Both the position numbers and the translations under genes were made by a program. A stretch of 64,000 nucleotides of DNA. Origin: Paludibacter sp. (GTDB lineage Bacteria > Bacteroidota > Bacteroidia > Bacteroidales > Paludibacteraceae). Positions 5,667 through 41,117 of the stretch are shown piece by piece; within the stretch, counting starts at the first letter, position 1; every line of letters begins with the position of its first letter. Location: the NCBI GenBank assembly GCA_028710415.1, contig JAQTUE010000003.1, forward strand, positions 186,001 to 250,000, in the 5' to 3' direction. Under the pieces are notes generated by a model that saw nothing but the letters and a program-made list of their open reading frames with translations, did no database searches and was not told the DNA's origin.

Positions 5667-5690
5667 TCGGTTTAAATTTTATACAACTTG

Positions 5691-6967: not shown

Positions 6968-7004
6968 CACCTGAATAAAATATCCCGGTGTTTTCTATCG
7001 TGTC
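6953..7004 (-). terminator. Hairpin after rhaA (possible weak terminator)
   Basis: Minus-strand bases 7004 to 6953 fold with an outer stem (TGACAC...GTGTCA extending through ATAG/CTAT) and an inner stem (AACACC/GGTGTT). No clean T tract follows, so termination may be partial and rhaT may be read both from rhaA and from its own promoter. Confidence 0.45.
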
Positions 7005-7019
7005 AGTAATCATAAATTA

Positions 7020-10358: not shown

Positions 10359-10381
10359 TGGGTGTTTAGTTTATAATTTAT

Positions 10382-13150: not shown

Positions 13151-13241
13151 GTGTTTTTGGATGTAAAGCTCATTATTTTAAGTACTAAAATTCAAATTCG
13201 CGATATGGAAATCGCGAGTCCCTATAATAAGATTTTAAATA

Positions 13242-13395
13242 AATAATCGGAGTAAATCAGTGTAATAAGTGGACAATCTCTTACATTCGAATCTGTGTAA
13301 ATCTCTTTTATTAAATAATTAATTAATCAGTGTAAATCAGTGTAATCAGTGGACAATCTCTCACATTCGAATCTGTGTAATCTCTTTATTCATTT
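13242..13395. repeat. Two tandem copies (80-bp period) of the CTGTGTAAATCAGTG repeat
   Basis: The block GTGTAATAAGTGGACAATC near 13260 returns 80 bases later as GTGTAATCAGTGGACAATC, with ACATTCGAATCTGTGTAA in both. Related copies lie at 18523-18630 and 21541-21655. All are in the same orientation and lie immediately 3' of minus-strand genes (here GH2, which ends at 13400). No ORF is present. Confidence 0.85.
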
Positions 13396-13399
13396 TAAT

Positions 13400-16222: not shown

Positions 16223-16292
16223 GAGTAGACAGGATACTTATGTATTTATTAACGAGATATTCAACCATTATTGTACCGGTTGAAAATCTATG

Positions 16293-16300
16293 CAAATATA
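16293..16300 (-). promoter_or_regulatory. -7 promoter box of the GH2 gene
   Basis: TATATTTG on the minus strand, about 70 bases before the GH2 start, matches TAnnTTTG. A -33 element at the usual spacing is not clear. Confidence 0.45.
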
Positions 16301-16362
16301 ATGTTAATATCTCAATTTCTTACTAAGAAGAAGTATTGATTTCTTAGATTTAATTTTAAACC

Positions 16363-16395
16363 AAAGGCTGTCTTCCAACTTTTGAAGACAGCCTT
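16363..16395 (-). terminator. Terminator hairpin after the T9SS beta-helix gene
   Basis: AAAGGCTGTCTTC pairs perfectly with GAAGACAGCCTTT around a 7-base loop, 29 bases beyond the stop at 16424. The T-rich flank is weak on the minus strand. Confidence 0.65.
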
Positions 16396-16423
16396 TCGCT
16401 TTTATTTAGTTGCCATTATTGAA

Positions 16424-18355: not shown

Positions 18356-18664
18356 GATGGTATAATTTTAATTAGTATTAGAATCAATTGTATGCAAATT
18401 AAGTCATAAATGGAATTGAAAGTATTATGACTTTTGATTGTCACACTCTTTTATTTGATATTTAACCGTCTATTGATCTGCTTTTTAGTTAAATATATTT
18501 CTTGCATTAAAAGATTAAATTAATAATCTGTGTAAATCTGTGTAATCAGTGGACAATTATTTACATTCATCTCTTTTTAATTTTAATAAAGAAATAATCT
18601 GTGTAAATCAGAGTCTTCGAGACATGATTTGCATATTCAAACTGAAATTATAAGTTTAAGATTA
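18356..18664. other. 309-bp spacer with dispersed repeat
   Basis: No gene is seen. The region nearest 18355 should hold the promoter of the beta-helix gene. The rest is occupied by the CTGTGTAAATCAGTG-type repeat listed at 18523-18630. Confidence 0.5.
18523..18630. repeat. CTGTGTAAATCAGTG repeat, third copy
   Basis: AATAATCTGTGTAAATC, GTGTAATCAGTGGACAAT, TTACATTCATCTC and AATAATCTGTGTAAATCAGAGTC follow in the same order as at 21541-21655. The copy lies 3' of the esterase-GH105 gene. Confidence 0.82.
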
Positions 18665-21181
18665 CTATTTATTTAACTCCATACAACCCATAATAAAGGG
18701 TCCGGTAGCCTTGGCATCATTATCCCTGATTTTCTCACCGGTATAATATTCAAAGCTGCCATCCCGGTAGGGGGTTCCACCTAGTCCTCCAACCGCGCAA
18801 CAGCGGGTTAAGGTTAAGGTGCCATCCATGTTTTCTACCAATAAATTGTCAATGATGCCATTGAATGCTTTTTCAGCATATGCTTTGTATTTTTTGTCAA
18901 TATACCCTTTGTTTACAGCTTTCGCCAAGGCATACATACATTGGGTGGTTACCGAAGCTTCAGGAAAATTCCCCTTGCGGGTTGGTTGGTCAATGACCTG
19001 GGACCAAAGTCCATTGCTAGCTTGATAGTTGGGAAGCGCATCAGCTAATCCCTGAATGATGGAAATGAGTTCTCCACGTCTGGGGTGATTTTCAGGAATG
19101 TAATCCATTGCATCTACTACTGCCATAAAATACCAGCCAATGCTTCTTCCCCAAAAGTTCGGGGATACTCCTGTCACAGGATCTGACCATCGCTGGCTTT
19201 TACTTTCATCCCAGGCATGGTAATAAAGCCCTGTTTTAGGATCAAAAGTATGCAAGTGGCATAACGTGATTTGTTTGATGGCTTCGTCAATCCATTCCGG
19301 TTTGTGAAAAGCAGAACCATAGTGTGCCATAAATGGAGATGCCATATAGATTCCGTCCAGCCACATTTGATCTTTGTAGATCTTTTTATGCCAGAATCCA
19401 CCATCTGACGTTCGGGGTTGACTTTTTAACTGGTCAATCAATGTGTCCATGGCTATTTTGTATTTTTCATCCCCGGTCTTTTTATATACATCAAAAAGCA
19501 TATTTCCCGGTTCAATAAAGTCGAGGTTCTGACTTTCGGCGTTGTACAGATAAATGTTACCTTTGGTGTTGATAACACTGTCGGCATATTGTTTTACATA
19601 TTCAAAATAGCGATCATCACCGGTTGCTTTCCAAAGTTGAAGCATGGCTGAACAACCTACTCCCTGTGAATATCCGAAAAATATTCTTTTCCCATAGTCA
19701 AGCTGCCATGCTTTTGGGAAGCGGCGTATTTCGGAATCAGCAAAATGCCTGGCATATGTATCTTTTGCAAAGTTGTCGGTGCGAAAGGGTGATGCCGGGA
19801 ATCCGGCTTTATTAAACAGGTTTACCCTGAAATAAGTCCCCCAGGCATACCGAACTGCTACCGGGCTTTTTACTTCCGGGGAAGTTAGTTCAACCTTATT
19901 GTTTACGATGGTGGCAATGGCAGGATAAAAACGATGGTCTGTTCCTGCAACCAGAAATCCTTTCAACGTTTGGCCTTTACTGTCCAATCCGCTTTCAGAA
20001 TAATCAAATGTTAGTATTACTTTATCCCCGGTTGCATGCATTGATTTGTAAAGCGGGCCTGAATAGGTTGTTTTCTTATGGTAATCTTTGGCTAATGCCC
20101 AGGCAGCCAGACGCTCGCCGGTAACAAGCTTGTTTCGTGGATGAATATCAGTTGAATCACCCGCATCGGTGATAACTGCCATGCCTGTGTTTTTAACCGA
20201 TTTCCAGGTATTTAGCTGTGCTTCCCGGATTCCGGCAGGTTGTTTGTATTGGGGTGCAATTTGTACAAAATAGAAAGGAAGGGTTGGTTGTTTGAATTCC
20301 TGACGCCAACTTTGAATCATATTCGTAAAAACTTCCTGATATTTTTCATAGCGTATGGAATTTGATTCGCCCTGATACCAGATATTCCCTTTCATGGTAT
20401 AGTTGCAGATTGGGGCAATCATTCCATTCCAAAGTGTTGAAGGTATTTTGCATAAATTATTTCCTGTGGCTTTTTCTTTCCTGAAATCAACCAACACATC
20501 GGCATAGAGCGGATTGTTTTTCATAACCTCCATCCTGGTCCATGATTCTGCATGGGTTCCGCCCCAGGTGGATTGGATTAATCCAACCGGCGTCTTTAAT
20601 TCTTTATAGAGTTTTCTTCCAAAGACAAATCCAACAGCAGAGAATTTTTCCAGGTTTTCTTTGTTGCAGGGCTTCCATTCCCCGACGCAATTTTCCATTT
20701 CACCATCCGTAGCCAGCTGATGTTCGACAATGAATAATCGGATATCAGGATAATTGGCATCTTTCATTTCTTCCTCCTCGTTCAATATCCCGGTTCTCCA
20801 ACCCTTATCTTTTGCGACCGGAAATTCCATGTTCGATTGCCCGGTGCAAAGCCAAACTTCCCCGATCAGGACATTGTTTATAACTAGGGTGTTTTCTCCC
20901 TGAATGGATATGGATTGATTTCTTACGGATGCAGGCGTTTTGATTTTGAGCTTCCACTTGCCTTCTTTGTCAGCAACTGTTAGTTCAGGTTTTGATGTCC
21001 AGGAAGGTTTAACTGAAATCTTTTCACCGGGAGTGGCATTGCCCCAGATATTTACAATTGTTTTTTGCTGTAACACCAGGTTGTCGGATAGAATGGAGGG
21101 AAGGGTAACTCTAGCACTTACTGATTGGGAACTTGCAAATAAAACGATGAGAAGTAAAAGGCGGATAATAGTTTTTTTCAT
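18665..21181 (-). CDS. Bimodular acetylesterase - GH105 unsaturated rhamnogalacturonyl hydrolase
   Basis: The 838-residue protein joins two enzymes. After a signal peptide (MKKTIIRLLLLIVLFASSQSVSA), residues about 25-470 match the sialate-O-acetylesterase-type SGNH family: GQSNMEF with nucleophile Ser116, and a later STWGGTHAESW block. Residues about 485-838 match GH105: GYSQGVGCSAML, WLDGIYMASPFMAHYG, GRSIGWYFMAVVD and a closing GPFIMGCMEL. In one chain it could remove acetyl groups from RG-I oligosaccharides and then the unsaturated uronate. The true ester substrate is not shown by sequence; acetylated RG-I is inferred from the partner domain and locus. The protein is likely periplasmic and has no T9SS tail. 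Confidence 0.88.
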   Translation of the reverse strand: MKKTIIRLLLLIVLFASSQSVSARVTLPSILSDNLVLQQKTIVNIWGNATPGEKISVKPSWTSKPELTVADKEGKWKLKIKTPASVRNQSISIQGENTLVINNVLIGEVWLCTGQSNMEFPVAKDKGWRTGILNEEEEMKDANYPDIRLFIVEHQLATDGEMENCVGEWKPCNKENLEKFSAVGFVFGRKLYKELKTPVGLIQSTWGGTHAESWTRMEVMKNNPLYADVLVDFRKEKATGNNLCKIPSTLWNGMIAPICNYTMKGNIWYQGESNSIRYEKYQEVFTNMIQSWRQEFKQPTLPFYFVQIAPQYKQPAGIREAQLNTWKSVKNTGMAVITDAGDSTDIHPRNKLVTGERLAAWALAKDYHKKTTYSGPLYKSMHATGDKVILTFDYSESGLDSKGQTLKGFLVAGTDHRFYPAIATIVNNKVELTSPEVKSPVAVRYAWGTYFRVNLFNKAGFPASPFRTDNFAKDTYARHFADSEIRRFPKAWQLDYGKRIFFGYSQGVGCSAMLQLWKATGDDRYFEYVKQYADSVINTKGNIYLYNAESQNLDFIEPGNMLFDVYKKTGDEKYKIAMDTLIDQLKSQPRTSDGGFWHKKIYKDQMWLDGIYMASPFMAHYGSAFHKPEWIDEAIKQITLCHLHTFDPKTGLYYHAWDESKSQRWSDPVTGVSPNFWGRSIGWYFMAVVDAMDYIPENHPRRGELISIIQGLADALPNYQASNGLWSQVIDQPTRKGNFPEASVTTQCMYALAKAVNKGYIDKKYKAYAEKAFNGIIDNLLVENMDGTLTLTRCCAVGGLGGTPYRDGSFEYYTGEKIRDNDAKATGPFIMGCMELNK

Positions 21182-29031: not shown

Positions 29032-29325
29032 TTATTTACTTAAAATTACTACACGATGTTTCGTATTTTTAAGTCTGCAAATTTCGGAAAAAAAACTGAA
29101 TAACGAAAATGAAACTAATAAATTAAGTATTAAGATTTAAGAATAAACCTAAAGCCAACTTCACAATCATTTTAAACCTCCCTCCAAATTGCCGGTTTGG
29201 TGAAATCAGTTAGTACAAAAACCGCATTCTCACGTCATTTAAGTCAACGAAGCCTATATTGAAAAAATCGGTTGTCGTTTGATAAATCTGAATTCTATAA
29301 ATCACAATCTTTCCACCCTTTGAGT

Positions 29326-30009
29326 ATGAAACATCTAAATATCCTGTTTTATTCTTTTATTTTGCTCCTTTGGGTACCGGGGTGCTCGGATAAAGCTTTA
29401 CAAACACCCGCGATCATCGAGATTATTGATACCGATTATCATTTTTCCACCCAAAACCTGCTGAAATTTTCGAAAGATAATAAAATTGAGCCTTCCTCAA
29501 TCTTCGAATGGCAAAACCATTGGGTGATCTATTGTGATCTCAATCGTGCCACAAAATATAAACTGAAACTCGAAACGCTTTTCCCAAGGGTCATTGTCAA
29601 ACTCTACGATACCCCTTTCTACAATTTCAATCGCCGGCAATACTCCAACGAAAAACCTGCCGCAAAGTGGGATCATATCATTATGACTGCCAATATGGTG
29701 GAAGATTCCCTGAAACAAAAAGAATACCTGGAATATCACCGCACCCAAAAGGAAAAATGGCCGGAGATATCCAAAGGCTTTTATAATGCAAACTTTCAGC
29801 AAGTATTGGTCTTCCGCAACGGTAGGCAATTGATGCTTGTCATTAGCATTCCGGCAGGTGAAAGCCTGGATCGCTTAAACCCCAAGACCACAGAAAATAA
29901 TCCCCGCGTTACAGAATGGAATTCAATTATGGGGAATTACCAGGAAGGTATTGAAGACGCCCCTAAAGGAACCACGTGGGTCATGTTTAGCACAGTAAAG
30001 AGTCGGTAG
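29326..30009 (+). CDS. Lipoprotein with C-terminal RhaM (L-rhamnose mutarotase)-like domain
   Basis: The frame opens at 29272, but the ATG at 29326 begins a lipoprotein signal (MKHLNILFYSFILLLWVPGC, lipobox VPGC), so I start there (227 residues). Residues about 115-225 resemble the dimeric alpha/beta-barrel fold of L-rhamnose mutarotases: EYLEYHRTQKEKWPEISKGF followed by FRNGRQLMLVISIP. The usual catalytic His four residues before WP is Gln here, so mutarotase activity is doubtful. The N-terminal part (about 25-110) may be a second, more diverged copy of the fold. The protein is membrane-anchored, unlike the soluble RhaM at 36978. Function is unknown. Confidence 0.65.
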   Translation: MKHLNILFYSFILLLWVPGCSDKALQTPAIIEIIDTDYHFSTQNLLKFSKDNKIEPSSIFEWQNHWVIYCDLNRATKYKLKLETLFPRVIVKLYDTPFYNFNRRQYSNEKPAAKWDHIIMTANMVEDSLKQKEYLEYHRTQKEKWPEISKGFYNANFQQVLVFRNGRQLMLVISIPAGESLDRLNPKTTENNPRVTEWNSIMGNYQEGIEDAPKGTTWVMFSTVKSR

Positions 30010-30405: not shown

Positions 30406-32616
30406 ATGCAACAAACCAATTACCAACTTTTTGATTTTCTAGACTTCAACACGGAGTTGAATGAGGGTGACAGGCTTTGGAGGGCTTGCACGCCAACTCA
30501 TGTTGAAGAAGTCAAAGGTACTGTTTTTATCACAATTCCATTCCAAAAGCAAAATAATTCCAACGAAATTGCACCTGATCTGACAGTTGCCACTAAAGAA
30601 TTCAAACTGCGCCTGAAAGCTTACGGTGATAAGATTTTGAGGGTGTCCATGGCTATCGGTGAACCGGTACTGGAACAATCGGAAATGCTTGAATTGTCAC
30701 CGGAATTAATGATAACTTCCCTGTCAGTTGAAAAAAAGGATTTGGAATGGATCATAACCGATTTAAAAGGAAATAAGAAAGCAGTCATTAGCTTGAAACA
30801 ACCGGAAACAGACTGGTGGAGTGATTTGGTGCCTGCACCCGCCGAAACCATACACCTTAGTTTTTTCCCGGATGGAAAGAAAGAAGTCAACTTATCGGCT
30901 ACCGATATGTTTTCACCTGCACGTCATGATGCTTTTGCACTGGCTTTTGTGGAACGGAACGATACAGCGCATCGTACAACATTTTCATTAGCAGCTAAAG
31001 CTGATGAATGTTTCTATGGTACCGGCGAACGTTTTACAAAAATGGACTTATCGGGCAAGACACTTCAAATGCGTAACCAGGACGGACAGGGAGTAAACAA
31101 CCGCCGTACTTACAAAAGCGTACCGTTTTACCTATCCTCGGAAAACTACGGCCTGTTTGTACATACCAACTCATTCGCCAAATTCTCACTGGCCGACCAT
31201 TCAACCCGGTCAGCACAGGTCATGGTGGAAGAACCCGTGGTGGATTTCTTTTTAATAGGTGGTGATGCCCCCGAAGAAATACTATTCGGTTACCGTCAGT
31301 TGACAGGATTCCCTACCATGCCCCCGCTGTGGAGCTTTGGTGTCTGGATGAGCCGCATGACATATTTTTCAGCTGATGAGGTGAATGATATCTGTGACCG
31401 GATGCGACAGGAAGATTATCCGTGCGATGTTATACACATTGATACCGGTTGGTTTGAAACGGACTGGTTGTGTGAATGGAAATTTAATGAGACCCGTTTC
31501 CCCGTTCCAGAAAAGTTTATCAGGAATTTAAATAAAAAAGGGTATCGTGTCAGCCTCTGGCAATTGCCCTATATCTCCTACAAAGCCCTTCAATACGAAG
31601 AAGCTGATAAGAATGAGTATATAAGCAAAAGTGAACGGAACCTTTCGGGTTCATCCAATTTCAGTGTACAGGATTTTGCCGGGACTATTGACTTTACGTA
31701 CGACAAGGCAACCGAATGGTATAAAGGCCTGTTACGTAAACTGCTTGAAATGGGAGTATCGTGCATAAAAACCGATTTTGGAGAGGATATTCACCTCGAT
31801 GCTGAATATCATTCCATGGCGCCCGATAAATTACACAATTTATATCCATTGCTCTACCAGAAAGCGGCTTACGAAGTGACGAAGGAAGTTACCGGGGATG
31901 GCATCATCTGGGCAAGGGCAGGTTGGGCCGGTTGCCAGCGTTATCCATTGCATTGGGGTGGTGATTCAGCCTGCTCGTGGGATGGCATGGCCGGTTCGTT
32001 AAAAGGTGGCTTACAGATCGGGCTTTCTGGCTTTGGGTTCTGGAGCCACGACGTACCCGGATTCCATGGAGTGCCTGACTTTATGAATTCTGTATTGCCC
32101 GATGATATTTATGTACGATGGACACAATTTGGCGTATTTTCATCCCATATCCGGTATCACGGGTCACACAAGCGCGAACCATGGCATTACCCGAACATAG
32201 CATCTATCATTCAGAAATGGTGGAAGTTACGATATTCATTGATTCCCTACATCCTGCAACAAAGCGAAAAAACCACCTGCACCGGTTTTCCGGTATTAAG
32301 GGCGCTTATATTGCATCACCCGGATGACAGGACCTGCCGTCAGATTGACGACCAGTACTACTTTGGGGATAACATGCTGGTGGCACCTGTCATGAATTCC
32401 GACAATAAACGCGACATCTATTTGCCGGAAGGTGCCTGGGTTCATTTCTTTACCCATGAAGTATTTACAGGCAATCAATGGCTTAAAAATGTGGATGTAC
32501 CCCTGGAGGAAATGCCTGTCTTTGTAAAACAGGGTGCTTCCATACCTATGTATCCGGAAGATGTAAATTGCACGGACGAAATGGATCTGGCAAAAGTGAT
32601 TGAAGTAGTATTCTAA
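30406..32616 (+). CDS. GH31 alpha-glycosidase (alpha-xylosidase-like), cytoplasmic
   Basis: The 736-residue protein has no signal peptide. GH31 motifs are clear: GVWMSRMTYFSADEV at 312-326, KTDFGED with nucleophile Asp457, and WGGDSACSWDG with the probable acid/base Asp520. The KTDFGE context and the FxVW/RMTYFSADEV block are closest to YicI-type alpha-xylosidases, but alpha-glucosidase activity cannot be excluded. Being intracellular, it would act on imported oligosaccharides or glycosides. It is the first gene of a plus-strand run that continues, after a repeat-rich spacer, into the methyltransferase cluster. Confidence 0.9.
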   Translation: MQQTNYQLFDFLDFNTELNEGDRLWRACTPTHVEEVKGTVFITIPFQKQNNSNEIAPDLTVATKEFKLRLKAYGDKILRVSMAIGEPVLEQSEMLELSPELMITSLSVEKKDLEWIITDLKGNKKAVISLKQPETDWWSDLVPAPAETIHLSFFPDGKKEVNLSATDMFSPARHDAFALAFVERNDTAHRTTFSLAAKADECFYGTGERFTKMDLSGKTLQMRNQDGQGVNNRRTYKSVPFYLSSENYGLFVHTNSFAKFSLADHSTRSAQVMVEEPVVDFFLIGGDAPEEILFGYRQLTGFPTMPPLWSFGVWMSRMTYFSADEVNDICDRMRQEDYPCDVIHIDTGWFETDWLCEWKFNETRFPVPEKFIRNLNKKGYRVSLWQLPYISYKALQYEEADKNEYISKSERNLSGSSNFSVQDFAGTIDFTYDKATEWYKGLLRKLLEMGVSCIKTDFGEDIHLDAEYHSMAPDKLHNLYPLLYQKAAYEVTKEVTGDGIIWARAGWAGCQRYPLHWGGDSACSWDGMAGSLKGGLQIGLSGFGFWSHDVPGFHGVPDFMNSVLPDDIYVRWTQFGVFSSHIRYHGSHKREPWHYPNIASIIQKWWKLRYSLIPYILQQSEKTTCTGFPVLRALILHHPDDRTCRQIDDQYYFGDNMLVAPVMNSDNKRDIYLPEGAWVHFFTHEVFTGNQWLKNVDVPLEEMPVFVKQGASIPMYPEDVNCTDEMDLAKVIEVVF

Positions 32617-33211
32617 TGAAACTTTTGAACCACAAAAGGGACAAAAGAATCACAAAAGTTCAAATGCATTTTGATTAAAAACAGGAATAAATTATACTGT
32701 TTATCGGCTATTACACACAGAATTCATTCATTGGTAAATTTATCTTCGTATTGGCAGTTACAATAAAATTTGAAACGACAAATTACACCGTAGGTGTTAA
32801 CTGTGCATAATCCCCAGTGGAACTTGCGGAACTGGGGGTTAGAAATGAAATTACAATCAGAACTCTGTAAGAGTTCACCAACAGAATCAATAGTTTAAGT
32901 GCTTTTTGCTTGTGGTCAACTCCTCTGGAGTTTGGTTGTTTATATTCAATTTACCCCCAGTTCCGCAAGCTCCACTGGGGATTATGCACGGTAAACTCCT
33001 ACAGAGTTTTTCAAATAGATGCAGATGGTATAATTTATTGAAATCATTGATAGAATAGATTTAAAAACAAAAAAAATAAAAATACTCTCATTGGTTGCAA
33101 AAGGCGTTAGTTATTTTTTATAAGTATTAATTTAAACTGAAGCATAAGTTCATAAGTTTCATTTGCAATAAAATCTATTGTGTCCTTATGTGCCTTATGT
33201 GGTTAAATATT
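32617..33211. other. 595-bp spacer filled by a quasi-palindromic element
   Basis: No gene. A low-complexity phrase (AACCACAAAAGGGACAAAAG) follows the GH31 stop and a related phrase (TGTGTCCTTATGTGCCTTAT) precedes the next gene; these two flank the palindromic element at 32750-33115. Confidence 0.6.
32750..33115. repeat. Quasi-palindromic element, copy 1 (37-bp inverted arms, core in orientation A)
   Basis: The arms 32803-32839 and 32953-32989 are inverted repeats (GTGCATAATCCCCAGTGG... and its complement) with one mismatch. The 113-bp core carries two mini-hairpins, AACTCTGTAAGAGTT and AACTCCTCTGGAGTT. Outside the arms are ACACCGTAGGTGT on the left, ACTCCTACAGAGT on the right and TTGCAAAAGGCGTTAGTTAT further right. 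A second copy at 57955-58325 has the same flanks but a reversed core. Confidence 0.88.
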
Positions 33212-34276
33212 ATGGAAACCTGGAAATCAAATTTTGAAGAAACAAAGCAGCATTACAATAATTGGTGGAATCAAAAAGGCATCGTGCTCACCATGTGGGA
33301 ACATTTGGAAAAGGAAGGTGCACCTTATGCTCCAATAGCCCCGCCGGCAGCACATAAAGACATCAACCAGTTTTGGTTTGATCCGCAATGGCGGGCTGAA
33401 TACCTGGATTATACCATGTCCCGCAATTCATACATGGCCGATATCCTGCCTGTTGCCAATACCCAGTTAGGGCCGGGATCACTGGCTGCCATACTGGGAG
33501 CAGACCTTGAAGGACGGGAAGATACCATCTGGATTCGTGAAAATGCTGATTTTGACGGACGGATAATACTGGACGAAAAAAACAAATGGTGGCAATTGCA
33601 TACGGACCTGTTGAGAGCCTGCAAGGCAAAAGCGCAGACAAATTACATGGTGGGTTGTCCGGACCTGGTGGAAGGACTGGACGTGCTGGCAAGCCTGAAA
33701 GGGTCGGATAATGTGTTGATGGACCTGATTATGGACCCGGACAATACCCTGATGCAGCTTCAGGAAATAAACAATGCCTATTTCAGGGTTTTTGACGAGA
33801 TCTACGATATCATCAATGTGAACGGTGAAATGGCTTTCTGTTACTTCTCATTGTGGGCACCCGGAAGAGTGTCTAAGTTGCAGTCCGACATATCCATCAT
33901 GATATCCCAGGATGATTTCCGGACGTTCTGCAAACCCTTTTTACAGGAACAATGCAATAAAATTGATTATACGCTTTACCATTTGGATGGGGTGGACGCG
34001 ATACGGCATTTGGATGCAGTGCTGGAAATTGAAAACCTGAACGCTATTCAGTGGACTCCAGGCTACGGACAGCCACAGGGAGGAAACAAACAATGGTTCG
34101 ACCTGTATAAAAAAATATTTGCCGGTGGAAAGTCGGTGATGGCAAACTGGGTTACACTCGACGAACTGGAACCCCTGCTCGATACTGTAGGAAACCAGGG
34201 ATTGCATATCAATGTAGATTTCAAAACTGAAAAAGAGATAGAGAAAGCACTTAACATAGTTGACCGTTACAGATAA
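33212..34276 (+). CDS. UroD-fold methyltransferase-like protein lacking the zinc HxC motif
   Basis: The frame opens at 33188, but the ATG at 33212 (METWKSNFEETKQHYNNWW) is the natural start, giving 354 residues. The protein has the uroporphyrinogen-decarboxylase/corrinoid-methyltransferase TIM-barrel look, with GCPDLVEGLDVLASLKG, an LWAPGRVSKLQSDIS block and a C-terminal NAIQWTPGYGQPQGG. Where MtaA/MtbA-type enzymes have the zinc ligands HxC it has YHLDG, so it probably does not bind zinc the same way. It could be the substrate-side (MT1) methyltransferase of the cluster, but that role is inferred. It is soluble and cytoplasmic. The next gene starts 22 bases downstream. Confidence 0.7.
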   Translation: METWKSNFEETKQHYNNWWNQKGIVLTMWEHLEKEGAPYAPIAPPAAHKDINQFWFDPQWRAEYLDYTMSRNSYMADILPVANTQLGPGSLAAILGADLEGREDTIWIRENADFDGRIILDEKNKWWQLHTDLLRACKAKAQTNYMVGCPDLVEGLDVLASLKGSDNVLMDLIMDPDNTLMQLQEINNAYFRVFDEIYDIINVNGEMAFCYFSLWAPGRVSKLQSDISIMISQDDFRTFCKPFLQEQCNKIDYTLYHLDGVDAIRHLDAVLEIENLNAIQWTPGYGQPQGGNKQWFDLYKKIFAGGKSVMANWVTLDELEPLLDTVGNQGLHINVDFKTEKEIEKALNIVDRYR

Positions 34277-34298
34277 AACTCACAACCAAATAATACGT

Positions 34299-35861
34299 AT
34301 GAAGATCGCCTTAAATTTTATTGATATAGCTGTCATTGTAGGTTATATTCTCATTTTGTTCGGAATTGCTTTTTGGGCCAGTGCCCGTAAGAATAAAAAC
34401 GATAACCTGTTCCTGGCAAACAAAAGCCTGGGATGGTTTGCTATCGGCTTAACCATGTGGGGCACCAATGTAGGTCCTTCCATGTTGCTGGCATCTGCAA
34501 GCGCAGGATACAGCACGGGGATAGTATCCGGTAATTTTGCCTGGTATGCCTTCCTGTTTATCATGATGCTGGTGTTTGTTTTTGCTCCCAGGTACCTGGG
34601 TGCCAAAGCATCGACTCTTCCAGAGTATATGGGTAAACGTTTTGGGCAATCCACCCGGTATCTGCTGGCGTGGTATACCCTGATTACCATTCTGATTTCC
34701 TGGTTATCACTGGGATTGTTCGCCGGAGGAATTCTGGTAAAGCAAATCCTGGGTATCCCCATGTGGGAATCGGTGATCATCATGGTGGTATTTGCTACCA
34801 TCCTCACTGCTGCCGGAGGATTGAAAGCCATAGCCTATACCAGCGTATTTCAAATGCTGCTGCTGATAGGGGTTTCGTTAACTTTGACTCTTTTGGGACT
34901 CTCGAAAGTAGGCGGTTTATCGGGTCTGTACCATGCTACACCTGAAAATTACTGGAGATTGTTCCAACCCATGACCGATAAGGACTTCCCGTGGTTGCCC
35001 ATTGTGCTGGGGTATCCGATCATGGGGGTATGGTTCTGGTGTACGGAGCAATCGATGGTACAATCGGTGTTGGGTGCCAAGAGCCTGAAGCAGGGACAGC
35101 TGGGTGCCAGTTTTATAGGTTGGTTGAAAATACTCGATGTGCCATTGTTTATCCTGCCCGGAATTATCTGTTTTGTATTGTACCCGCATTTGCATGATCC
35201 AAGCGAAGCTTACCTGACGATGGTCACCAGCCTGTTCCCGGTAGGAATGAAAGGACTGATTATCGTAGTTCTGTTAGCAGCATTACTTGGAAATATCGGT
35301 TCATCACTTAATTCGGTGAGTACCGTGTACACCATGGATATTTACCTGAAAAAGAACAAGCCCAATGCCACCAATTCGGAGATCGTAAAGATAGGGCGAT
35401 GGGTAACGTTGTTTAGTGCCATTATTTCCGTCATTGTAGCCTTGGCCATTGATAATATAAAAGGGCTGAACCTGTTCAATATATTCCAGTCGGTACTTGG
35501 CTTTTTAGCACCTTCCATGTCAGTTGTATTCTTATTTGCTGTCTTCTGGAAAAAGACAACTTCAAAGGCTGTGAATTTAATCCTGACTGCCGGTACTGCT
35601 TTTTGTCTTTCGGTTGCAGTCATGTACTGGTGGGTATTCCCGATAGAGAAATATCATTTCTGGCCTCATTTTATGATGATATCGTTCTATCTGTTTATCA
35701 TCCTGTCAATAGCGACCATTATTATTTCCAAACTTGATAAGCATGCTACCGATGAGAATACCCTTGGGTTGGAAAAACTGCCAAAGACATCTAAGTTAGT
35801 CTGGGCTTCGTGGATCGTGTTGATTATCGTGATGGTTTCATTGTATTTGTTTTTTAATTAA
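34299..35861 (+). CDS. Sodium:solute symporter (SSS family)
   Basis: The frame opens at 34260, which would overlap the preceding gene; the ATG at 34299 (MKIALNFIDIAVIVGYILIL) starts at the first membrane helix and gives 520 residues. It has 13-14 predicted membrane segments, and FLANKSLGWFAIGLTMWGTNVGPSMLLASASAGY and STLPEYMGKRFG are typical of SGLT-like carriers. The closest relatives known to me carry sugars or polyols with sodium. Set between methyltransferase genes, it is the likely importer of the cluster's substrate. Confidence 0.88.
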   Translation: MKIALNFIDIAVIVGYILILFGIAFWASARKNKNDNLFLANKSLGWFAIGLTMWGTNVGPSMLLASASAGYSTGIVSGNFAWYAFLFIMMLVFVFAPRYLGAKASTLPEYMGKRFGQSTRYLLAWYTLITILISWLSLGLFAGGILVKQILGIPMWESVIIMVVFATILTAAGGLKAIAYTSVFQMLLLIGVSLTLTLLGLSKVGGLSGLYHATPENYWRLFQPMTDKDFPWLPIVLGYPIMGVWFWCTEQSMVQSVLGAKSLKQGQLGASFIGWLKILDVPLFILPGIICFVLYPHLHDPSEAYLTMVTSLFPVGMKGLIIVVLLAALLGNIGSSLNSVSTVYTMDIYLKKNKPNATNSEIVKIGRWVTLFSAIISVIVALAIDNIKGLNLFNIFQSVLGFLAPSMSVVFLFAVFWKKTTSKAVNLILTAGTAFCLSVAVMYWWVFPIEKYHFWPHFMMISFYLFIILSIATIIISKLDKHATDENTLGLEKLPKTSKLVWASWIVLIIVMVSLYLFFN

Positions 35862-35904
35862 AGGATGCATCATAAATTCATAAACAATTAAATTCAAGTT
35901 GAAG

Positions 35905-36939
35905 ATGACACACAGAGAACGGTTTTATGCCACCATTGCCAATCAGCCGGTCGACAGGCCTGCTTCCTGGTTAGGCCTTCCTGTACCGGAAGCGCAACAG
36001 GGATTACTTGACTTTTTTAAAGTGGCGTCGGTTGATGAATTGAAAGTATTGCTGGATGATGATATTTATCCTATTGAAGTTCCATATCATTATCCACCAT
36101 CGAATCACATTGCCTGTGCCTTCAAGTTTGCCAAAGTCTCGCACGATGACAAACCGGAAGAGCGTACACTGACAGCCCCCGGATTCTTTGAAGATATTGA
36201 CGATCCTGCTGATGTGGATTTATTTCCATGGCCCGATCCTGCTTTATACCTTGATGTGGAAGAATCACGCAGGCTGTCCAGGTCTGTTGACCCGGGCTAT
36301 ATCCGGATGGGTATCATGTGGAGTGCCCATTTCCAGGATGCGTGTGCTGCTTTTGGCATGGAAAAAGCCCTGATGGTCATGTTGATGAATCCGGACATGT
36401 TTGTTGCAGTGATTGACCGGATTACGGATTTTTACCTGAAAGCAAACGAATTGTTTTACGAAGCCACCAAAGGATATCTCGATGCCGTGCTAATCGGCAA
36501 TGACTTTGGCAGCCAGTGCGGATTGATGGTCGATCCCGAATCCTTGCGAGCCTACGTGTTTCCCGGAACAAAGAAATTGATTGACCAGGCCAAAAGCTAT
36601 GGGTTGAAAGTCATTCATCATTCCTGCGGATCTATTTTCCCGATCATTGATGATCTGGTTGAATTGGGAGTGGATGTCATTCATCCCATACAGGCATTAG
36701 CCCAGGATATGGATGCCCCGAACCTGAAAGCCCATTTTGAAGGGAAAACTTCATTCTGCGGTGGGGTAGATGCACAACACTTGCTGGTAAACGGAACACC
36801 GGAACAAGTTACTCAAAAGGTAAACGAACTGAAACAATTATTCCCGACCGGATTGATTATTTCACCCAGCCACGAGGCAATTCTAAAAGACATTCCCCCT
36901 GCAAATATAAAAGCATTGTTTGATGCATTAAAATTATAG
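35905..36939 (+). CDS. UroD-family corrinoid methyltransferase-like protein
   Basis: The ATG at 35905 (MTHRERFYATIANQPVDRP) is the standard start of this family; the frame also opens two codons upstream with TTG. The 344-residue TIM-barrel protein has the UroD-like N-terminus, a GNDFGSQCGLMVDPE stretch near residue 199, HHSCGSIFPIIDDL with H239 and C241 in the zinc HxC position, and ISPSHEAI near 320 where MtaA/MtbA have Cys. The HxC...H pattern is common in UroD-like methyltransferases of unknown substrate. It may transfer a methyl group to the corrinoid protein encoded downstream. It is not heme-pathway HemE, judged from context and divergence. Confidence 0.8.
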   Translation: MTHRERFYATIANQPVDRPASWLGLPVPEAQQGLLDFFKVASVDELKVLLDDDIYPIEVPYHYPPSNHIACAFKFAKVSHDDKPEERTLTAPGFFEDIDDPADVDLFPWPDPALYLDVEESRRLSRSVDPGYIRMGIMWSAHFQDACAAFGMEKALMVMLMNPDMFVAVIDRITDFYLKANELFYEATKGYLDAVLIGNDFGSQCGLMVDPESLRAYVFPGTKKLIDQAKSYGLKVIHHSCGSIFPIIDDLVELGVDVIHPIQALAQDMDAPNLKAHFEGKTSFCGGVDAQHLLVNGTPEQVTQKVNELKQLFPTGLIISPSHEAILKDIPPANIKALFDALKL

Positions 36940-36977
36940 AAACTCAGGCATTGTTTCTTAAAAATAAAAGTTATACT

Positions 36978-37301
36978 ATGAGACGATTAGGACAACTTAT
37001 TCACCTGAAACCGGTAGGAGCAGAAGAATATATAAAACATCATGCAGCAGTTTGGCCAGGTGTGCTAAAAATGATAACAGACTGCAATATAGTCAATTAT
37101 TCCATATTCAAAAAGGATACTGTCTTGTTTGCCTATTTCGAATATGTTGGTGATGATTTTGTAAAAGATATGGCTATCATGGCTGCCGATCCTGAAACAC
37201 AACGTTGGTGGGATGTGGTTAAACCCCTGATGGAACCAATAGAAACCCGTAATGCCGGTGAGTTCTGGGCGGATATGGAAGAGATATTTCACATGGCTTG
37301 A
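36978..37301 (+). CDS. rhaM: L-rhamnose mutarotase
   Basis: The start ATG at 36978 gives 107 residues, the standard RhaM length. MRRLGQLIHLKPVGAEEYIK, then KHHAAVWPGV with the catalytic-type His four residues before WP, and QRWWDVVKPLMEP near the C-terminus are family signatures. RhaM interconverts alpha and beta anomers of L-rhamnose, and relatives act on other 6-deoxysugars. It lies between a methyltransferase and a second RhaT, so the cluster's substrate is probably a 6-deoxysugar or similar aldose. Confidence 0.92.
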   Translation: MRRLGQLIHLKPVGAEEYIKHHAAVWPGVLKMITDCNIVNYSIFKKDTVLFAYFEYVGDDFVKDMAIMAADPETQRWWDVVKPLMEPIETRNAGEFWADMEEIFHMA

Positions 37302-37410
37302 CGAAAAAAGTAGGTAGTTGGTAGTAGGTAGTCGGTAGCATAACATACTGGGAATAGCAGTCTAAAAATCAAATGAAACAATAAAGAAAATTATAGGAGA
37401 CGATACTAAT

Positions 37411-37440
37411 TTAATCCCCCTTTAGGGGCTAGGGGTTATT
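37411..37440. repeat. CCCCTTTAGGGG-type dispersed repeat
   Basis: Preceded by GACGATACTAATTTAATC, the copy reads CCCCCTTTAGGGGCTAGGGG then TTATTTTA. Its flank matches that of the copy inside trpG (GAAGATACTAACTTAGTT), showing that the repeat unit is longer than the palindrome. Confidence 0.85.
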
Positions 37441-37512
37441 TTAGATTAATAAGAGTAAGTAGCAAAGTAAATAAAATAGTAAATAGTAAATGAATAAATA
37501 GTAAATAACTCG

Positions 37513-38577
37513 ATGGTAAACTCAAATCCTATACTCGGAACATTCCTGCATGCTGTTGGCGGAGCCTCAGCTTCTACGTGTTATTTGCCAAGCCAAAAGA
37601 CCAAACAATGGTCGTGGGGAACCTTCTGGCTGGTACAGGCCACTTTTGCATGGCTACTTATGCCGTTGCTGGTTGGTTATCTGACTGTCCCTTGCTTCTT
37701 TGAGGTATTGCATAAAGCTCCGGCAGGTGCATTCTGGGGTGCCTTTCTGTTGGGTGGGGTATATGGCTTTGGCGGGATGTCCTTTGGGTATGCCATCCGG
37801 AATATCGGATATTCGCTTACCTACACCATTGGAATCGGAATCTCTGCAGTGCTGGGAACCCTGACACCCATCATAATGAGAGGGCAGGTTGCTGAGTATT
37901 TCTCACGTCCGGGAAGTGGAATCGTACTTGGAGGTATGGTTTTGTCGGTTATAGGGGTATCGCTTTGCGGGTTGGCAGGTTTTAGGAAAGAACGTGACCT
38001 CGGAGAATTGAAGAGCTCGGTTCATTTCAATATGAGAACAGGCTTGGCATTGGCCATTATTGCCGGGTTATTATCAGCCGTTTTTAATATATCCCTTGAA
38101 GTAGGCAAACCAATCGCTGACCTTGCTGCCAGCTATGGAGCCGGGAATTATGAAGGGAATGCCAAAATGATTGTTTCCACTTCGGGTTGCTTTTTAGTGA
38201 ACCTCATATGGTTCGTCATTTTGGGAATTAAAGATAATACACTGAAGGAATTTACCAAATCAAGTGGTATAGCAGTCACTCAACGGGTAAAGAATACACT
38301 GTGGTCTGCATTAGCGGGTACGTTATGGTGCGGCCAGTTCTTCTTTTATGGATTAGGGCATGTACAAATGGGAAATTTTCAATTTATCAGCTGGGTGTTG
38401 CACATGTCAATGTTGATTTTCTTCAGCTATATAGTAGGCTTGATCATGAAGGAATGGAAACAGGTTTCCAAACCTACCTATATGATACTGATCCTGGCAT
38501 TGATCCTACTTTTCATTTCTTCCGCTGTTATATCCTACGGAAGTTATTACGGGGAACAAATCCTTGCAGGTAAATAA
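37513..38577 (+). CDS. RhaT-family sugar:proton symporter, second paralogue
   Basis: A 354-residue protein with about ten membrane segments. MVNSNPILGTFLHAVGGASA, YLPSQKTKQWSWGTFWLVQ and GVYGFGGMSFGYAIRNIGYSL line up with RhaT of positions 5827-6858, from which it clearly differs in sequence. RhaT carries L-rhamnose, and this paralogue may prefer another deoxysugar. The 211-bp gap before it contains the dispersed repeat and a GTAGGTAGTTGG-type short repeat. A corrinoid protein gene follows 71 bases later. Confidence 0.9.
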   Translation: MVNSNPILGTFLHAVGGASASTCYLPSQKTKQWSWGTFWLVQATFAWLLMPLLVGYLTVPCFFEVLHKAPAGAFWGAFLLGGVYGFGGMSFGYAIRNIGYSLTYTIGIGISAVLGTLTPIIMRGQVAEYFSRPGSGIVLGGMVLSVIGVSLCGLAGFRKERDLGELKSSVHFNMRTGLALAIIAGLLSAVFNISLEVGKPIADLAASYGAGNYEGNAKMIVSTSGCFLVNLIWFVILGIKDNTLKEFTKSSGIAVTQRVKNTLWSALAGTLWCGQFFFYGLGHVQMGNFQFISWVLHMSMLIFFSYIVGLIMKEWKQVSKPTYMILILALILLFISSAVISYGSYYGEQILAGK

Positions 38578-38648
38578 TGCGTGAAAAAAGTATTGATAGG
38601 TATGAGAAAGTAAATAATAGAAATAAAATAACACAAAAATAACAGAAT

Positions 38649-39320
38649 ATGAACACAAACTTATTAGAAAAACTATCCGAATGTGTGGAGTTCGGTAAGA
38701 TTAACCTGGCATCGCCTTATCCACCTCAAATGAAAGGACTTCCCGGAGCTGATGAATATACCAAAGAAGCCCTGGAAGCAGGAATTACTCCTACCGAGAT
38801 TTTGAATGAAGCATTGATTACTGCTATGAATAAAGTTGGTCAGAAATTCAGTGAAAACAAGATATTTGTGCCTCAGATGCTGTTGTCAGCTAAAGCCATG
38901 GGTGCTTCCATGAACCATTTGAAACCCTACTTTGCAAATGGGACTGTCAAACGTAAAGGTATTTTTATATTAGGAACTGTGTTCGGCGATTTGCATGATA
39001 TCGGGAAAAACCTGTTTGGAATGATGGTCGAAGGTGCCGGATGGGAAGTCATCGATTTGGGTATTGATGTAAAAACAGAGAAATTCGTGGATGCCATTCA
39101 ACAAAACCCGACTGCAGTAGTTGGAATCTCGGCTTTACTCACTACCACTATGGTGAATATGAAACCGGTGATTGATGCTATTAAATTAGCTGTTCCACAA
39201 ACTAAAATTATTGTCGGAGGGGCACCACTTTCGTCTGAGTATGCGCTTTCAATTGGAGCTGATGCATATGGTAAAAATCCACAGGAAGGAATCCAATGGC
39301 TGGACTCCATAGCTAGTTAA
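38649..39320 (+). CDS. Corrinoid (B12-binding) methyl carrier protein
   Basis: The 223-residue protein has the two-part layout of MtaC/MtbC/MetH-like carriers: an N-terminal helical cap (about 1-95, with NKVGQKFSENKIFVPQMLLSA) and a Rossmann B12 domain with GDLHDIGKNL, where His116 is the lower cobalt ligand, then SALLTTTMVNMK and IVGGAPL. It would carry a methyl group on cobalt between the methyltransferases of the cluster. The zinc-type UroD methyltransferase begins 18 bases downstream, strongly implying one operon. Confidence 0.94.
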   Translation: MNTNLLEKLSECVEFGKINLASPYPPQMKGLPGADEYTKEALEAGITPTEILNEALITAMNKVGQKFSENKIFVPQMLLSAKAMGASMNHLKPYFANGTVKRKGIFILGTVFGDLHDIGKNLFGMMVEGAGWEVIDLGIDVKTEKFVDAIQQNPTAVVGISALLTTTMVNMKPVIDAIKLAVPQTKIIVGGAPLSSEYALSIGADAYGKNPQEGIQWLDSIAS

Positions 39321-39338
39321 ATATCAAATTAAAACATT

Positions 39339-40331
39339 ATGCAAAACTGGATAAATTCTATATTAAGCAGTGAAAAACGTATTGCCTTACCTTTTATGAC
39401 CCATCCGGGTATTGAAGTCATTGGGAAAAGTGTCAGGGAAGCAGTTTCCGATGGACAGGTACATTTTCAGGCTATAAAAGCTGTTTCCGAACAATTCGAT
39501 ACCACCGCCTGTACCGTCATTATGGATCTGACTGTTGAAGCAGAAGCCTTTGGTGCAGAGGTAAAACTGCCCGAAAACGAAGTGCCTACGGTCCTGGGAA
39601 GGTTGTTGTCGGATGCTGCAGCTATCGAAGCACTCGAAGTACCCGGGCTGGACAAAGGACGTGTGCCTGCTTATTTGCTGGCAAGTAAACTGGCTGCTGA
39701 CAACTTCAATGATAAACCCGTTTTCTCAGGTTGTATAGGCCCGTATTCATTGGCAGGAAGACTGTATGACATGTCGGAAATCATGGTGGCCATTTATATT
39801 GAACCGGAATCCATACAGTTGCTGTTATCGAAATGCACGGAGTTCCTGATTAAATACTGTCAGGCTTTGAAGGCTACCGGAACACTGGGCGTGATTATTG
39901 CCGAGCCTGCTGCAGGACTGCTGTCGGGAGATGATTGCATGACTTATTCAACTTTCTATGTTAAACAAATTGTTGATGCTGTGCAGGACGATACTTTTAC
40001 AGTAATTTTGCATAATTGTGGTAACACAGGCCAGTGTACCGATGCCATGGTGGCAAGTGGTGCCAGGGCGTTGCACTTTGGAAATGCCATTGATATGACC
40101 GAAGTCCTGAAACAATGTCCGGACGATGTTGTTGTAATGGGAAACCTCAATCCGGTAGGTATCTTTAAACAGGGAAGCGTGGAGTCGGTCAAAGAGGAAA
40201 CGTTGAAACTGCTTCAAAAGACAGCCGGGCATAAAAACTTCGTTATTTCAAGTGGGTGCGATTTGCCTCCTTTTGTTCCCGAAGCAAATATCAGGGCTTT
40301 CCTGGAAACAGTAGCAATCTATAATTTGTAA
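39339..40331 (+). CDS. MtaA/MtbA-type methylcorrinoid methyltransferase (UroD family)
   Basis: The 330-residue protein has all three expected zinc ligands of MtaA/MtbA enzymes, His225 and Cys227 in LHNCGNTGQC and Cys307 in SSGCDLPP. Other family features are ALPFMTHPGIEV at the N-terminus and GNLNPVGIFKQGS near 268. MtaA and MtbA move a methyl group from the corrinoid protein to a thiol cofactor; in bacteria without coenzyme M the acceptor would be different, possibly tetrahydrofolate. It follows the corrinoid protein directly, and the reactivation-domain protein follows it, so it is the probable MT2. Confidence 0.88.
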   Translation: MQNWINSILSSEKRIALPFMTHPGIEVIGKSVREAVSDGQVHFQAIKAVSEQFDTTACTVIMDLTVEAEAFGAEVKLPENEVPTVLGRLLSDAAAIEALEVPGLDKGRVPAYLLASKLAADNFNDKPVFSGCIGPYSLAGRLYDMSEIMVAIYIEPESIQLLLSKCTEFLIKYCQALKATGTLGVIIAEPAAGLLSGDDCMTYSTFYVKQIVDAVQDDTFTVILHNCGNTGQCTDAMVASGARALHFGNAIDMTEVLKQCPDDVVVMGNLNPVGIFKQGSVESVKEETLKLLQKTAGHKNFVISSGCDLPPFVPEANIRAFLETVAIYNL

Positions 40332-40344
40332 TATAACCACCCTC

Positions 40345-40389
40345 GACATTTCAGGTTCAATGAAAAATTCTTCTTTGACCCGAAATGTA
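40345..40389 (+). other. Intercistronic hairpin
   Basis: ACATTTCAGGTTCAA (40346-40360) pairs with TTGACCCGAAATGT (40375-40388) with one bulge and a G-U pair. There is no T tract. It may stabilise the upstream part of the message. Confidence 0.5.
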
Positions 40390-40406
40390 CCTGGTGAATC
40401 TAAATT

Positions 40407-41117
40407 ATGTCAGACGATTTTCAATCCTTTCATTTTACATTTGCTGAAGTAGCTCCCTCGATTGCCGAAGTGCTCGATTTCCTTCGTTCCACGGACCTGG
40501 AAGAAGAACATCCGGCTGTAATCTTTATCCGCGAAATACTGGATGAACTGAATTTCGATACCGGGATTACTGGCGGGTACCGGGTGGTTCATGTTGATGA
40601 TTTGAATGTAAAAGATGGAATATTAAAAATCGATCAACATGATTTGAACCTTGGCAGGCAGGTGTGCGGTTATATAAAAGAATCAACCCGTATTGCCCTG
40701 TTCCTGTGTACGGCAGGGGAAGATTTTACCCGGATGACCAATGCACTGAACGAGCAGGGGGACATCATGGAAGCCTACATCCTGGATGCCATTGGTTCGC
40801 TTACCGTGGAGAATGCCATGGATAAAATACAGGAAAATATACGCCTGTCCTATAAAACAGAACATCTGAAAATTTCTAACCGCTATAGCCCCGGTTATTG
40901 CAACTGGCCTCTTACCGACCAAAAAGCCTTGTTTGAATTGATAGGCGATAACCTCACCGGGATTACACTGAGTGATTCCTGCCTGATGTCTCCCCGTAAA
41001 TCAGTCAGCGGTATCATCGGGATTGGAAAGAACCTGAAGCATCATGAATATGGCTGTAAAATCTGCTCAAATACCTCGTGCATGTATCGGAAAGTGCTCA
41101 ATGACGGTAATGCATAA
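40407..41117 (+). CDS. MetH reactivation-domain protein (corrinoid reductive activation)
   Basis: The 236-residue stand-alone protein matches the activation domain of cobalamin-dependent methionine synthase: RYSPGYCNWPLTDQKALF and SDSCLMSPRKSVSGIIGIG are its hallmarks. It ends with a Cys-rich CKICSNTSCMYRK tail that may hold metal. In MetH this domain binds S-adenosylmethionine and restores oxidised cobalt by reductive methylation. Here it probably reactivates the corrinoid protein two genes upstream, a job more often done by RACo/RamA ferredoxin-like proteins. It ends the cluster; the next gene converges from the opposite strand. Confidence 0.9.
   Translation: MSDDFQSFHFTFAEVAPSIAEVLDFLRSTDLEEEHPAVIFIREILDELNFDTGITGGYRVVHVDDLNVKDGILKIDQHDLNLGRQVCGYIKESTRIALFLCTAGEDFTRMTNALNEQGDIMEAYILDAIGSLTVENAMDKIQENIRLSYKTEHLKISNRYSPGYCNWPLTDQKALFELIGDNLTGITLSDSCLMSPRKSVSGIIGIGKNLKHHEYGCKICSNTSCMYRKVLNDGNA

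Follow-up and report, generated by a model that had tools for sequence, protein, structure and literature searches.

What are the genes of a corrinoid methyl-transfer system doing among genes for the uptake and turnover of sugars? The question is raised by a locus in a 64,000-nucleotide stretch of a Paludibacter sp. contig (JAQTUE010000003.1, positions 186,001 to 250,000; hereafter the window), in which a preliminary description had placed a corrinoid protein, three methyltransferases of the uroporphyrinogen decarboxylase (UroD) type and a MetH activation domain, interleaved with a RhaM mutarotase, a RhaT paralogue and a sodium:solute symporter (SSS) and preceded by a glycoside hydrolase of family 31 (GH31). 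All of these features are present where they had been placed, and Pfam matches cover the SSF, URO-D (twice), RhaM, RhaT, B12-binding and Met_synt_B12 domains and the upstream GH31. We refer to the three UroD-type proteins, in gene order, as UroD-A, UroD-B and UroD-C. The operon probably encodes a corrinoid-dependent pathway for the O-demethylation of methylated sugars that feeds methionine synthesis, with the 2-O-methyl-xylose of rhamnogalacturonan II (RG-II) as the proposed donor. From computed gene content, motifs, fold, fusions and co-occurrence, we infer the substrate, metal binding, direction of methyl transfer, acceptor, import route and every reaction of this pathway.

Conservation of the gene set was assessed in related loci. 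A relative of UroD-A is encoded in 313 stretches, of which the best 80 were kept with up to 10 kb on each side and annotated by BLAST to proteins of the window or its relatives, at identity cut-offs of our choosing. Two of the 80 (L086 and L098) yielded no UroD-A open reading frame (ORF) in gene calling and are still counted in the denominator; many others end at contig edges, and 51 carry at least 8 kb on both sides (full-flank loci). They come from Paludibacter, Dysgonomonas, Bacteroides, Phocaeicola, Prevotella, Maribellus, Draconibacterium and others, including one Opitutales record; they share ancestry, and some of the genomes profiled below (e.g., G359, G454 and G495) are also among them. 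GH31 lies near UroD-A in 64 of the 80 loci (46 of the 51 full-flank loci), the symporter in 62 (45) and the corrinoid protein in 52 (39). UroD-C is found in 42 loci, the activation protein in 38 (31 full-flank), a GH141 gene in 30, a homocysteine methyltransferase in 23 and a homologue of the RhaM-like lipoprotein in 20. UroD-A shares one same-strand run with GH31 in 60 of 78 loci and with the symporter in 56 of 78. Given that the same neighbours recur in records of many genera, a chance grouping of these genes is very unlikely. The co-occurrence of rhaM and rhaT with the corrinoid/UroD set, proposed earlier as a check, was thus borne out in part: the GH31, symporter and corrinoid genes are conserved, but RhaM (8 of 80) and RhaT (9 of 80) are not conserved partners. 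UroD-A itself is scarce, occurring in two of 395 genomes in a class-wide draw and in 14 of 393 genomes of the order, 10 of them with strong matches, the window's own genome counted in both. The Bacteroides faecis fusion of UroD-A with the corrinoid protein was matched at E 1e-100 or better in 14 of 119 genomes of its genus, B. faecis included.

UroD-A had been described as a third UroD protein without the His-x-Cys motif. This motif is indeed lacking, but the site is not absent: a His-x-Asp pair (HxD; H257 and D259) is invariant in all 50 aligned sequences (the window, 44 of the 80 loci and five other relatives), making UroD-A the conserved candidate for the methyl-sugar:corrinoid O-demethylase (the first methyltransferase, MT1). 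UroD-A has no Pfam or NCBIfam match. Its AlphaFold2 model is a confident UroD fold, for which Foldseek returned UroD and a methylcobalamin-type methyltransferase as the closest folds. HxD therefore reads as an oxygen-type ligand set and not as a missing site, the metal binding and the third ligand being putative; together with the modelled UroD fold it is as expected of an O-demethylase, and UroD-A is not degenerate. Distant homologues (24-27% identity, HxDG kept) were seen at L035:6303-7400, L036:2771-3850 and L037:9243-10334; L035 and L036 also hold RhaT and a melibiase-family or GH31 gene, and no corrinoid gene was found in any of the three stretches.

The partners of UroD-A carry the expected motifs. 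The DLHDIG motif with His116 previously noted in the corrinoid protein was confirmed in the window translation, and DLHDIG is present in all 52 homologous ORFs of the related loci. UroD-C likewise has the His-Cys-Cys set of thiol methyltransferases that had been reported (H225, C227 and C307, invariant in five of five aligned sequences); its motifs HNC and GCD.P occur together in 39 of 42 ORFs, and its closest solved relative is 4ay7, a methylcobalamin:coenzyme M methyltransferase (E 3.8e-15). Of 38 ORFs for the activation protein, 37 show R[YF]SPGY together with a CxxC..C pattern; in MetH, a motif of the R[YF]SPGY type serves S-adenosylmethionine (AdoMet). UroD-B, UroD-C, the corrinoid protein and the activation protein all stay below the NCBIfam cut-offs. 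When the window's genome was searched with PF01208, the matches were UroD-B, UroD-C and one more protein (contig C89).

Gene fusions in relatives bear on where the methyl group goes. Among 78 called UroD-A ORFs, 47 are unfused, 11 are joined to the corrinoid domain, 18 to a homocysteine methyltransferase and the corrinoid domain, and two to a homocysteine methyltransferase without a called corrinoid part; overall, 29 of 78 are joined to a corrinoid domain. In the three-part fusions L032 and L033, Pfam places PF02574 (E 7e-70 and 2e-83), PF02607 and PF02310 all 3' of the UroD-A part, and the same scan found no pterin-binding (folate) domain in either. The homocysteine domains of the fusions retain the NC and GGCC motifs, which have a zinc role in homocysteine methyltransferases. 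Judged by its domains, the three-part fusion is a predicted methionine synthase with UroD-A in place of the folate module. In other relatives, PF02574 is encoded by a gene of its own within the operon, and the window's genome encodes a stand-alone homocysteine methyltransferase on another contig, 65% identical to one in a relative's locus. Methionine synthase in that genome is apparently split between a 920-aa frame with the homocysteine domain (contig C77) and a separate 327-aa activation-domain frame (C30). Homocysteine is most likely the methyl acceptor, given the homocysteine methyltransferases that relatives encode either separately or in fusions; of the suggestion that the methyl group passes to a one-carbon carrier, we would retain the transfer but replace the carrier with homocysteine. 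Phocaeicola vulgatus ATCC 8482 has UroD-C as the sole acceptor candidate seen in its locus (L097); for the corrinoid domain of the fusion in P. vulgatus, the nearest match is 1y80, which is a predicted cobalamin-binding protein. The idea that UroD-C alone serves as acceptor enzyme was considered and not upheld, as UroD-C coexists with the homocysteine methyltransferase in eight of the 51 full-flank loci.

The sugar side of the cassette points to RG-II. The beta-helix neighbour of UroD-A loci is GH141 (PF21231), and the GH141 enzyme BT1002 releases 2-O-methyl-D-xylose-α1,3-L-fucose from RG-II chain A according to the accessible part of one paper (PMC10154630), with the same activity given in the available portion of another (PMC12786026). 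At the B. faecis locus, GH141 matches BT_1002 over nearly the full length (594 bits) and keeps aspartates D523 and D564, as counted by eye after a shift of five residues. Three of four Bacteroides/Phocaeicola genomes checked have two GH141 genes, and the fourth has one. In the window's genome, GH141 (890 bits to BT_1002) lies on contig C3 in an RG-II-type locus with GH138 (1273 bits to BPa0997), GH78, GH2, GH127, a BT_1020-like protein and GH28; structure record 6hze is described as a GH138 enzyme targeting RG-II. This genome thus holds both a BT1002-type GH141 and GH138, the pair that we took to mark degradation of RG-II chain A. A GFO/IDH/MocA oxidoreductase gene adjoins GH141 on contig C3 and recurs in 11 of the 80 UroD-A loci (e.g., L029:10630-11676 and L126:14759-15829). 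GH138 homologues are present in 15 of the 80 loci, and GH141, GH138 or GH140 in 42 (34 of the 51 full-flank loci).

A profile of the 393 genomes of the order gave a similar picture. At strong cut-offs, which we set at a gap in the E-values, UroD-A occurs in 10 genomes, GH141 in 15 and both in nine (Fisher 9e-14; the p-values given here ignore relatedness, and the ten UroD-A genomes span eight families), so that strong GH141 is found in nine of 10 genomes with strong UroD-A versus six of 383 others. Counting all matches regardless of strength gave 14, 27 and an overlap of 10 (p 3e-10). Confounding by lifestyle was tested with GH28: strong UroD-A is confined to GH28-positive genomes (10 of 98 versus 0 of 295), and the link with GH141 remains inside this set (nine of 10 genomes with UroD-A versus six of 88 without; p 3e-8). 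Of the nine genomes with both, five have GH141 no more than 10 kb from UroD-A, one has it about 18 kb away on the same contig, and three, including the window's genome, have it on another contig; the profile and the gene neighbourhood are thus only in part independent of each other. We regard the link of the cassette to RG-II as strong. Together with cassette co-occurrence, it supports the earlier proposal that an O-methyl sugar of pectin is the substrate of the corrinoid system. Two RG-II sugars had been named: 2-O-methyl-xylose would fit the core cassette, but 2-O-methyl-fucose would fit only the accessory module, and speculatively so.

GH31 bears on both the substrate and the import route. 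The best solved relative of the window's GH31 is 5f7c (named alpha-glucosidase; 1134 bits), which we take to be a B. thetaiotaomicron protein, followed by YicI chains (382.5-384.3 bits); the B. faecis orthologue is much closer to 5f7c (1701 bits). Against the NCBIfam alpha-xylosidase PRK10658 the window's GH31 scores 500 bits, under the cut-off of 606. This protein has the KTDFGE motif, as do 55 of the 65 GH31 ORFs in related loci; where YicI has Asp-Cys-Phe, the window's GH31 has Asp-Thr-Gly, and 60 of the 65 read HLDTGW or HIDTGW. A GH31 near YicI suits an alpha-xyloside rather than an L-sugar or a uronide. No functional paper on 5f7c was found in our literature search. Since no signal peptide is seen by eye, an imported disaccharide is likely the substrate of GH31. 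The order first proposed, in which GH31 releases the sugar before RhaT or the symporter imports it, would accordingly be reversed, and the likely carrier of the disaccharide is the SSS protein rather than RhaT.

In the proposed pathway, a secreted GH141, encoded in the RG-II-type locus elsewhere in the genome, would release 2-O-methyl-D-xylosyl-α1,3-L-fucose from RG-II side chain A, the sodium symporter would bring in this disaccharide, and the cytoplasmic GH31 would split it into 2-O-methyl-xylose and fucose. UroD-A, through a putative His/Asp/(Asp or His) metal site, would then demethylate 2-O-methyl-xylose to xylose, with the Co(I) corrinoid protein as recipient of the O-methyl group. A thiol-type methyltransferase (UroD-C here; the PF02574 homocysteine methyltransferase, sometimes fused, in several relatives) would methylate homocysteine, and the MetH-type activation protein would reactivate oxidised cobalamin with AdoMet. 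UroD-B, RhaM and RhaT may equip this hub for a second methylated sugar, for which a 6-deoxysugar is plausible. A bolder form of the model, which we advance tentatively as somewhat less likely true than false, is a methionine synthase run on a methylated sugar and not on methyl-folate: one chain of UroD-A, homocysteine methyltransferase and cobalamin would move the 2-O-methyl group of RG-II xylose to homocysteine, the linked GH31 would cut the 2-O-methyl-xylose-fucose bond, and the hub would gain UroD-B, MtaB or other UroD donors by species.

Table. Genes of the window assigned to the methyl-sugar locus, with proposed functions and the evidence for each family.
Feature	Position in window	Strand	Evidence
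RhaM-like lipoprotein	29272..30009	+	PF05336 43.5 bits in C-terminal half; lipobox by eye; start probably 29332
GH31, proposed cytoplasmic alpha-(2-O-methyl)xylosidase	30406..32616	+	PF01055 E 6e-85; no signal peptide by eye
UroD-A, proposed methyl-sugar:corrinoid O-demethylase (MT1)	33212..34276	+	HxD; predicted UroD fold
Sodium:solute symporter (SSS), proposed importer	34302..35861	+	PF00474 E 6.7e-53
UroD-B, accessory MT1 candidate (HSC plus His)	35905..36939	+	PF01208 E 7.3e-24
RhaM-family mutarotase	36978..37301	+	PF05336 E 3.2e-30
RhaT-family transporter paralogue	37513..38577	+	PF06379 E 3e-56
Corrinoid (methyl-carrier) protein, His116	38649..39320	+	PF02310 and PF02607 (B12-binding with cap)
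UroD-C, MtaA/MtbA-like zinc methyltransferase, proposed methylcorrinoid:thiol (homocysteine) transferase	39339..40331	+	PF01208 E 4.4e-55
MetH-activation-domain protein with C-terminal Cys cluster, proposed AdoMet-dependent reactivation	40407..41117	+	PF02965 (Met_synt_B12) E 1.2e-10

From UroD-A through the activation protein the genes lie on a single strand with intergenic gaps of 19-76 bases, except for 212 bases 5' of RhaT. The spacer between GH31 and UroD-A is about 0.6 kb and contains a long inverted repeat, whose arms (32803-32838 and 32954-32989) are near-perfect by eye and which is possibly a small mobile or attenuator-like element. A riboswitch search found no Rfam family at gathering score in the window or in the loci of five relatives.

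Several observations weigh against the RG-II demethylation pathway. The corrinoid gene is absent from the stretch in 12 of the 51 full-flank loci and the activation-protein gene in 20. For UroD-A, sequence and profile searches against solved structures gave no match, and Foldseek aligns it with UroD and 4ay8 at moderate TM-scores (0.51-0.61). The hhalign comparison of its profile is poor with UroD-C and weak with UroD-B, and the equivalence of the ligands rests on secondary-structure order and this weak alignment to UroD-B. Homologues at 24-27% identity retain HxDG in stretches without a found corrinoid gene. UroD-C and the homocysteine methyltransferase coexist (both in eight full-flank loci, the homocysteine methyltransferase only in seven, UroD-C only in 21 and neither in 15); because they are not mutually exclusive, UroD-C need not be a homocysteine enzyme. 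In the window's genome the RG-II locus and the operon are on different contigs, in an assembly whose listed contamination is 6.32%. Two catalytic aspartates, sought with a pattern of our own, were both found in 17 of 30 GH141 ORFs, one was found in 12 and neither in one, some of these ORFs being cut. GH141, GH138 and GH140 are all missing from 17 of the 51 full-flank loci, and GH141 is a multifunctional family that includes a xylanase and endo-fucanases in the accessible part of PMC12786026.

The last two points also favour a reading in which the same chemistry acts on another O-methyl sugar (e.g., 4-O-methyl-glucuronate, 3-O-methyl-rhamnose or 2-O-methyl-fucose) and GH141 is a neighbour through general pectin use. 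We consider this unlikely, although it is the most probable of the alternatives to our model. Also in its favour, genes upstream in L033 and L034 resemble hexuronate catabolism by eye, and pteridophyte RG-II contains 3-O-methyl-rhamnose according to the available portion of PMC12168206. Set against it are the survival of the GH141 association among GH28-positive genomes and the strong BT1002-likeness of the GH141 in the window's genome. The affinity of GH31 for 5f7c and then YicI, suiting an alpha-xyloside rather than an L-sugar or a uronide, likewise speaks against this reading. It is very unlikely that the methyl group comes from an aryl methyl ether or from methanol or another small molecule derived from pectin, with the sugar genes importing only the carbon. 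MtaB occurs in two of the 80 loci (L053 and L064), where it is additional to UroD-A, suggesting separate substrates, and none was found among nine window proteins scanned; the UroD superfamily does include phenolic O-demethylases, as stated in the accessible text of PMC10418091, but the 29 corrinoid fusions of UroD-A and its same-strand runs with GH31 and the symporter speak against such a donor. Slightly less probable still is that UroD-A is some other TIM-barrel sugar enzyme (e.g., an isomerase or lyase) fused by chance to a methionine-synthase-like hub: it has no Pfam match, and its 24-27% homologues adjoin RhaT and a GH31 or melibiase-family gene (L036 and L035) in stretches where a corrinoid gene was not found, but its closest folds are UroD and a methylcobalamin-type methyltransferase, and the corrinoid and homocysteine-methyltransferase fusions would go unexplained.

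UroD-B, RhaM and RhaT look accessory, since RhaM and RhaT travel with UroD-B and occur in few loci. UroD-B is found in 11 of the 80; within the full-flank set, RhaT is present in eight of nine loci with UroD-B versus 0 of 42 without it, and RhaM in six of nine versus 0 of 42. That UroD-B has HxC with His as the third ligand was confirmed (HHSC and SPSHE in three of three aligned sequences), and the UroD-B ORFs of the related loci carry HHSC in 10 of 11 cases and SPSHE in all 11. The three genes look like a module for a second substrate, for which a methylated 6-deoxysugar (2-O-methyl-fucose or other) is a speculative candidate confined to this module. A rhamnose pathway proper was rejected, given the small number of loci with RhaM or RhaT and their tracking of UroD-B; no RhaA, kinase or aldolase of an L-rhamnose catabolic operon was found among the nine window proteins scanned. 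A separate RhaT-RhaA pair lies at 5827-8285 of the window, where positions 1959-21181 form a rhamnogalacturonan I type locus with an RGL11 lyase, two GH88-family genes, RhaT, RhaA, GH28, GH106 and GH2.

Other candidate donor genes accompany UroD-A elsewhere. The methanol:corrinoid methyltransferase gene mtaB adjoins it in L053 (6250-7623) and L064 (a 458-aa gene). Two further URO-D-type genes, possibly enzymes for extra methyl donors, lie upstream in L046 (1123-3441), L072, L073 and L074, with an MFS transporter in L046. With such additions, the corrinoid unit may be a hub that gathers methyl groups from several pectin-derived donors. Upstream of the cassette in L053 (1770-5161) are Fe-ADH, PdxA-like and SBD_N/NBD_C kinase genes, a set that presumably resembles a four-carbon acid sugar route; the kinase has homologues in four of the 80 loci. 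A side observation concerns L009:1730-6331, a single 1534-aa frame in which a GH78 rhamnosidase is combined with a BNR domain and with a TIM barrel of the xylose-isomerase-like type.

The RG-II linkage that B. thetaiotaomicron leaves unbroken is, to our knowledge, that of 2-O-methyl-xylose to fucose, and if our model is true, GH31 of the window type would cut it. This species breaks all but one of the RG-II linkages, as given in the accessible part of a 2025 paper (PMC12282258). The model would also connect RG-II in the diet with the methionine supply of Bacteroides, Phocaeicola and Prevotella, and it makes the solved GH31 5f7c and several UroD-family proteins directly testable. In a literature search we met no description of anaerobic gut or sediment bacteria handling the methyl ethers of pectin sugars, nor the combination of a sugar ether donor, an HxD UroD-type enzyme and replacement of the folate module in methionine synthase; both absences are weak, as most subscription papers, including the 2017 RG-II study, lie outside the coverage. 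The sole methyl-sugar demethylation met was a P450 route for 6-O-methyl-galactose. The parts belong to known families, and it is their combination that appears new.

The corrinoid O-demethylase systems of acetogens comprise an MT1, a corrinoid protein, a second methyltransferase (MT2) and an activase. The window operon would share with them a UroD-type or other MT1 that gives an ether methyl group to a corrinoid protein: it encodes a DxHxxG corrinoid carrier and an MT1 candidate with a known methyltransferase fold and oxygen-type ligands, of which the metal binding and the third ligand are putative. It differs in its MetH-type activation domain, thiol-type acceptors and sugar genes. Among the nine window proteins scanned, Pfam detected no pterin-binding (methyl-H4folate) MT2, and no ATP-dependent activase of the RACE type was found, the search for RACE being limited to these nine. 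As in MetH, relatives hold a homocysteine domain, a B12 cap and a B12 domain in one chain, often with an activation-domain protein nearby; the two fused relatives differ from MetH in that PF02574, PF02607 and PF02310 are joined to UroD-A instead of a folate module, and the activation domain is a separate protein.

A further parallel is found in the mlp gene clusters of Type 1, which, in the accessible part of the paper by Kountz and Balskus (PMC10418091), likewise contain several UroD paralogues, a corrinoid protein and a reactivation protein and no folate methyltransferase. Those clusters encode His-Cys-Cys Mlps and Ram/RACE activases and are linked there to methyl-sulfur and methyl-selenium. 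In contrast, the window has an HxD core in UroD-A, HSC plus His in UroD-B, His-Cys-Cys only in UroD-C, MetH-type reactivation and a glycan-degradation context. Finally, the available portion of PMC10033563 describes a P450 monooxygenase that oxidatively demethylates 6-O-methyl-galactose and releases formaldehyde. That route also strips a methyl ether from a polysaccharide-derived sugar, whereas the corrinoid system proposed here would need no oxygen and would conserve the methyl group.

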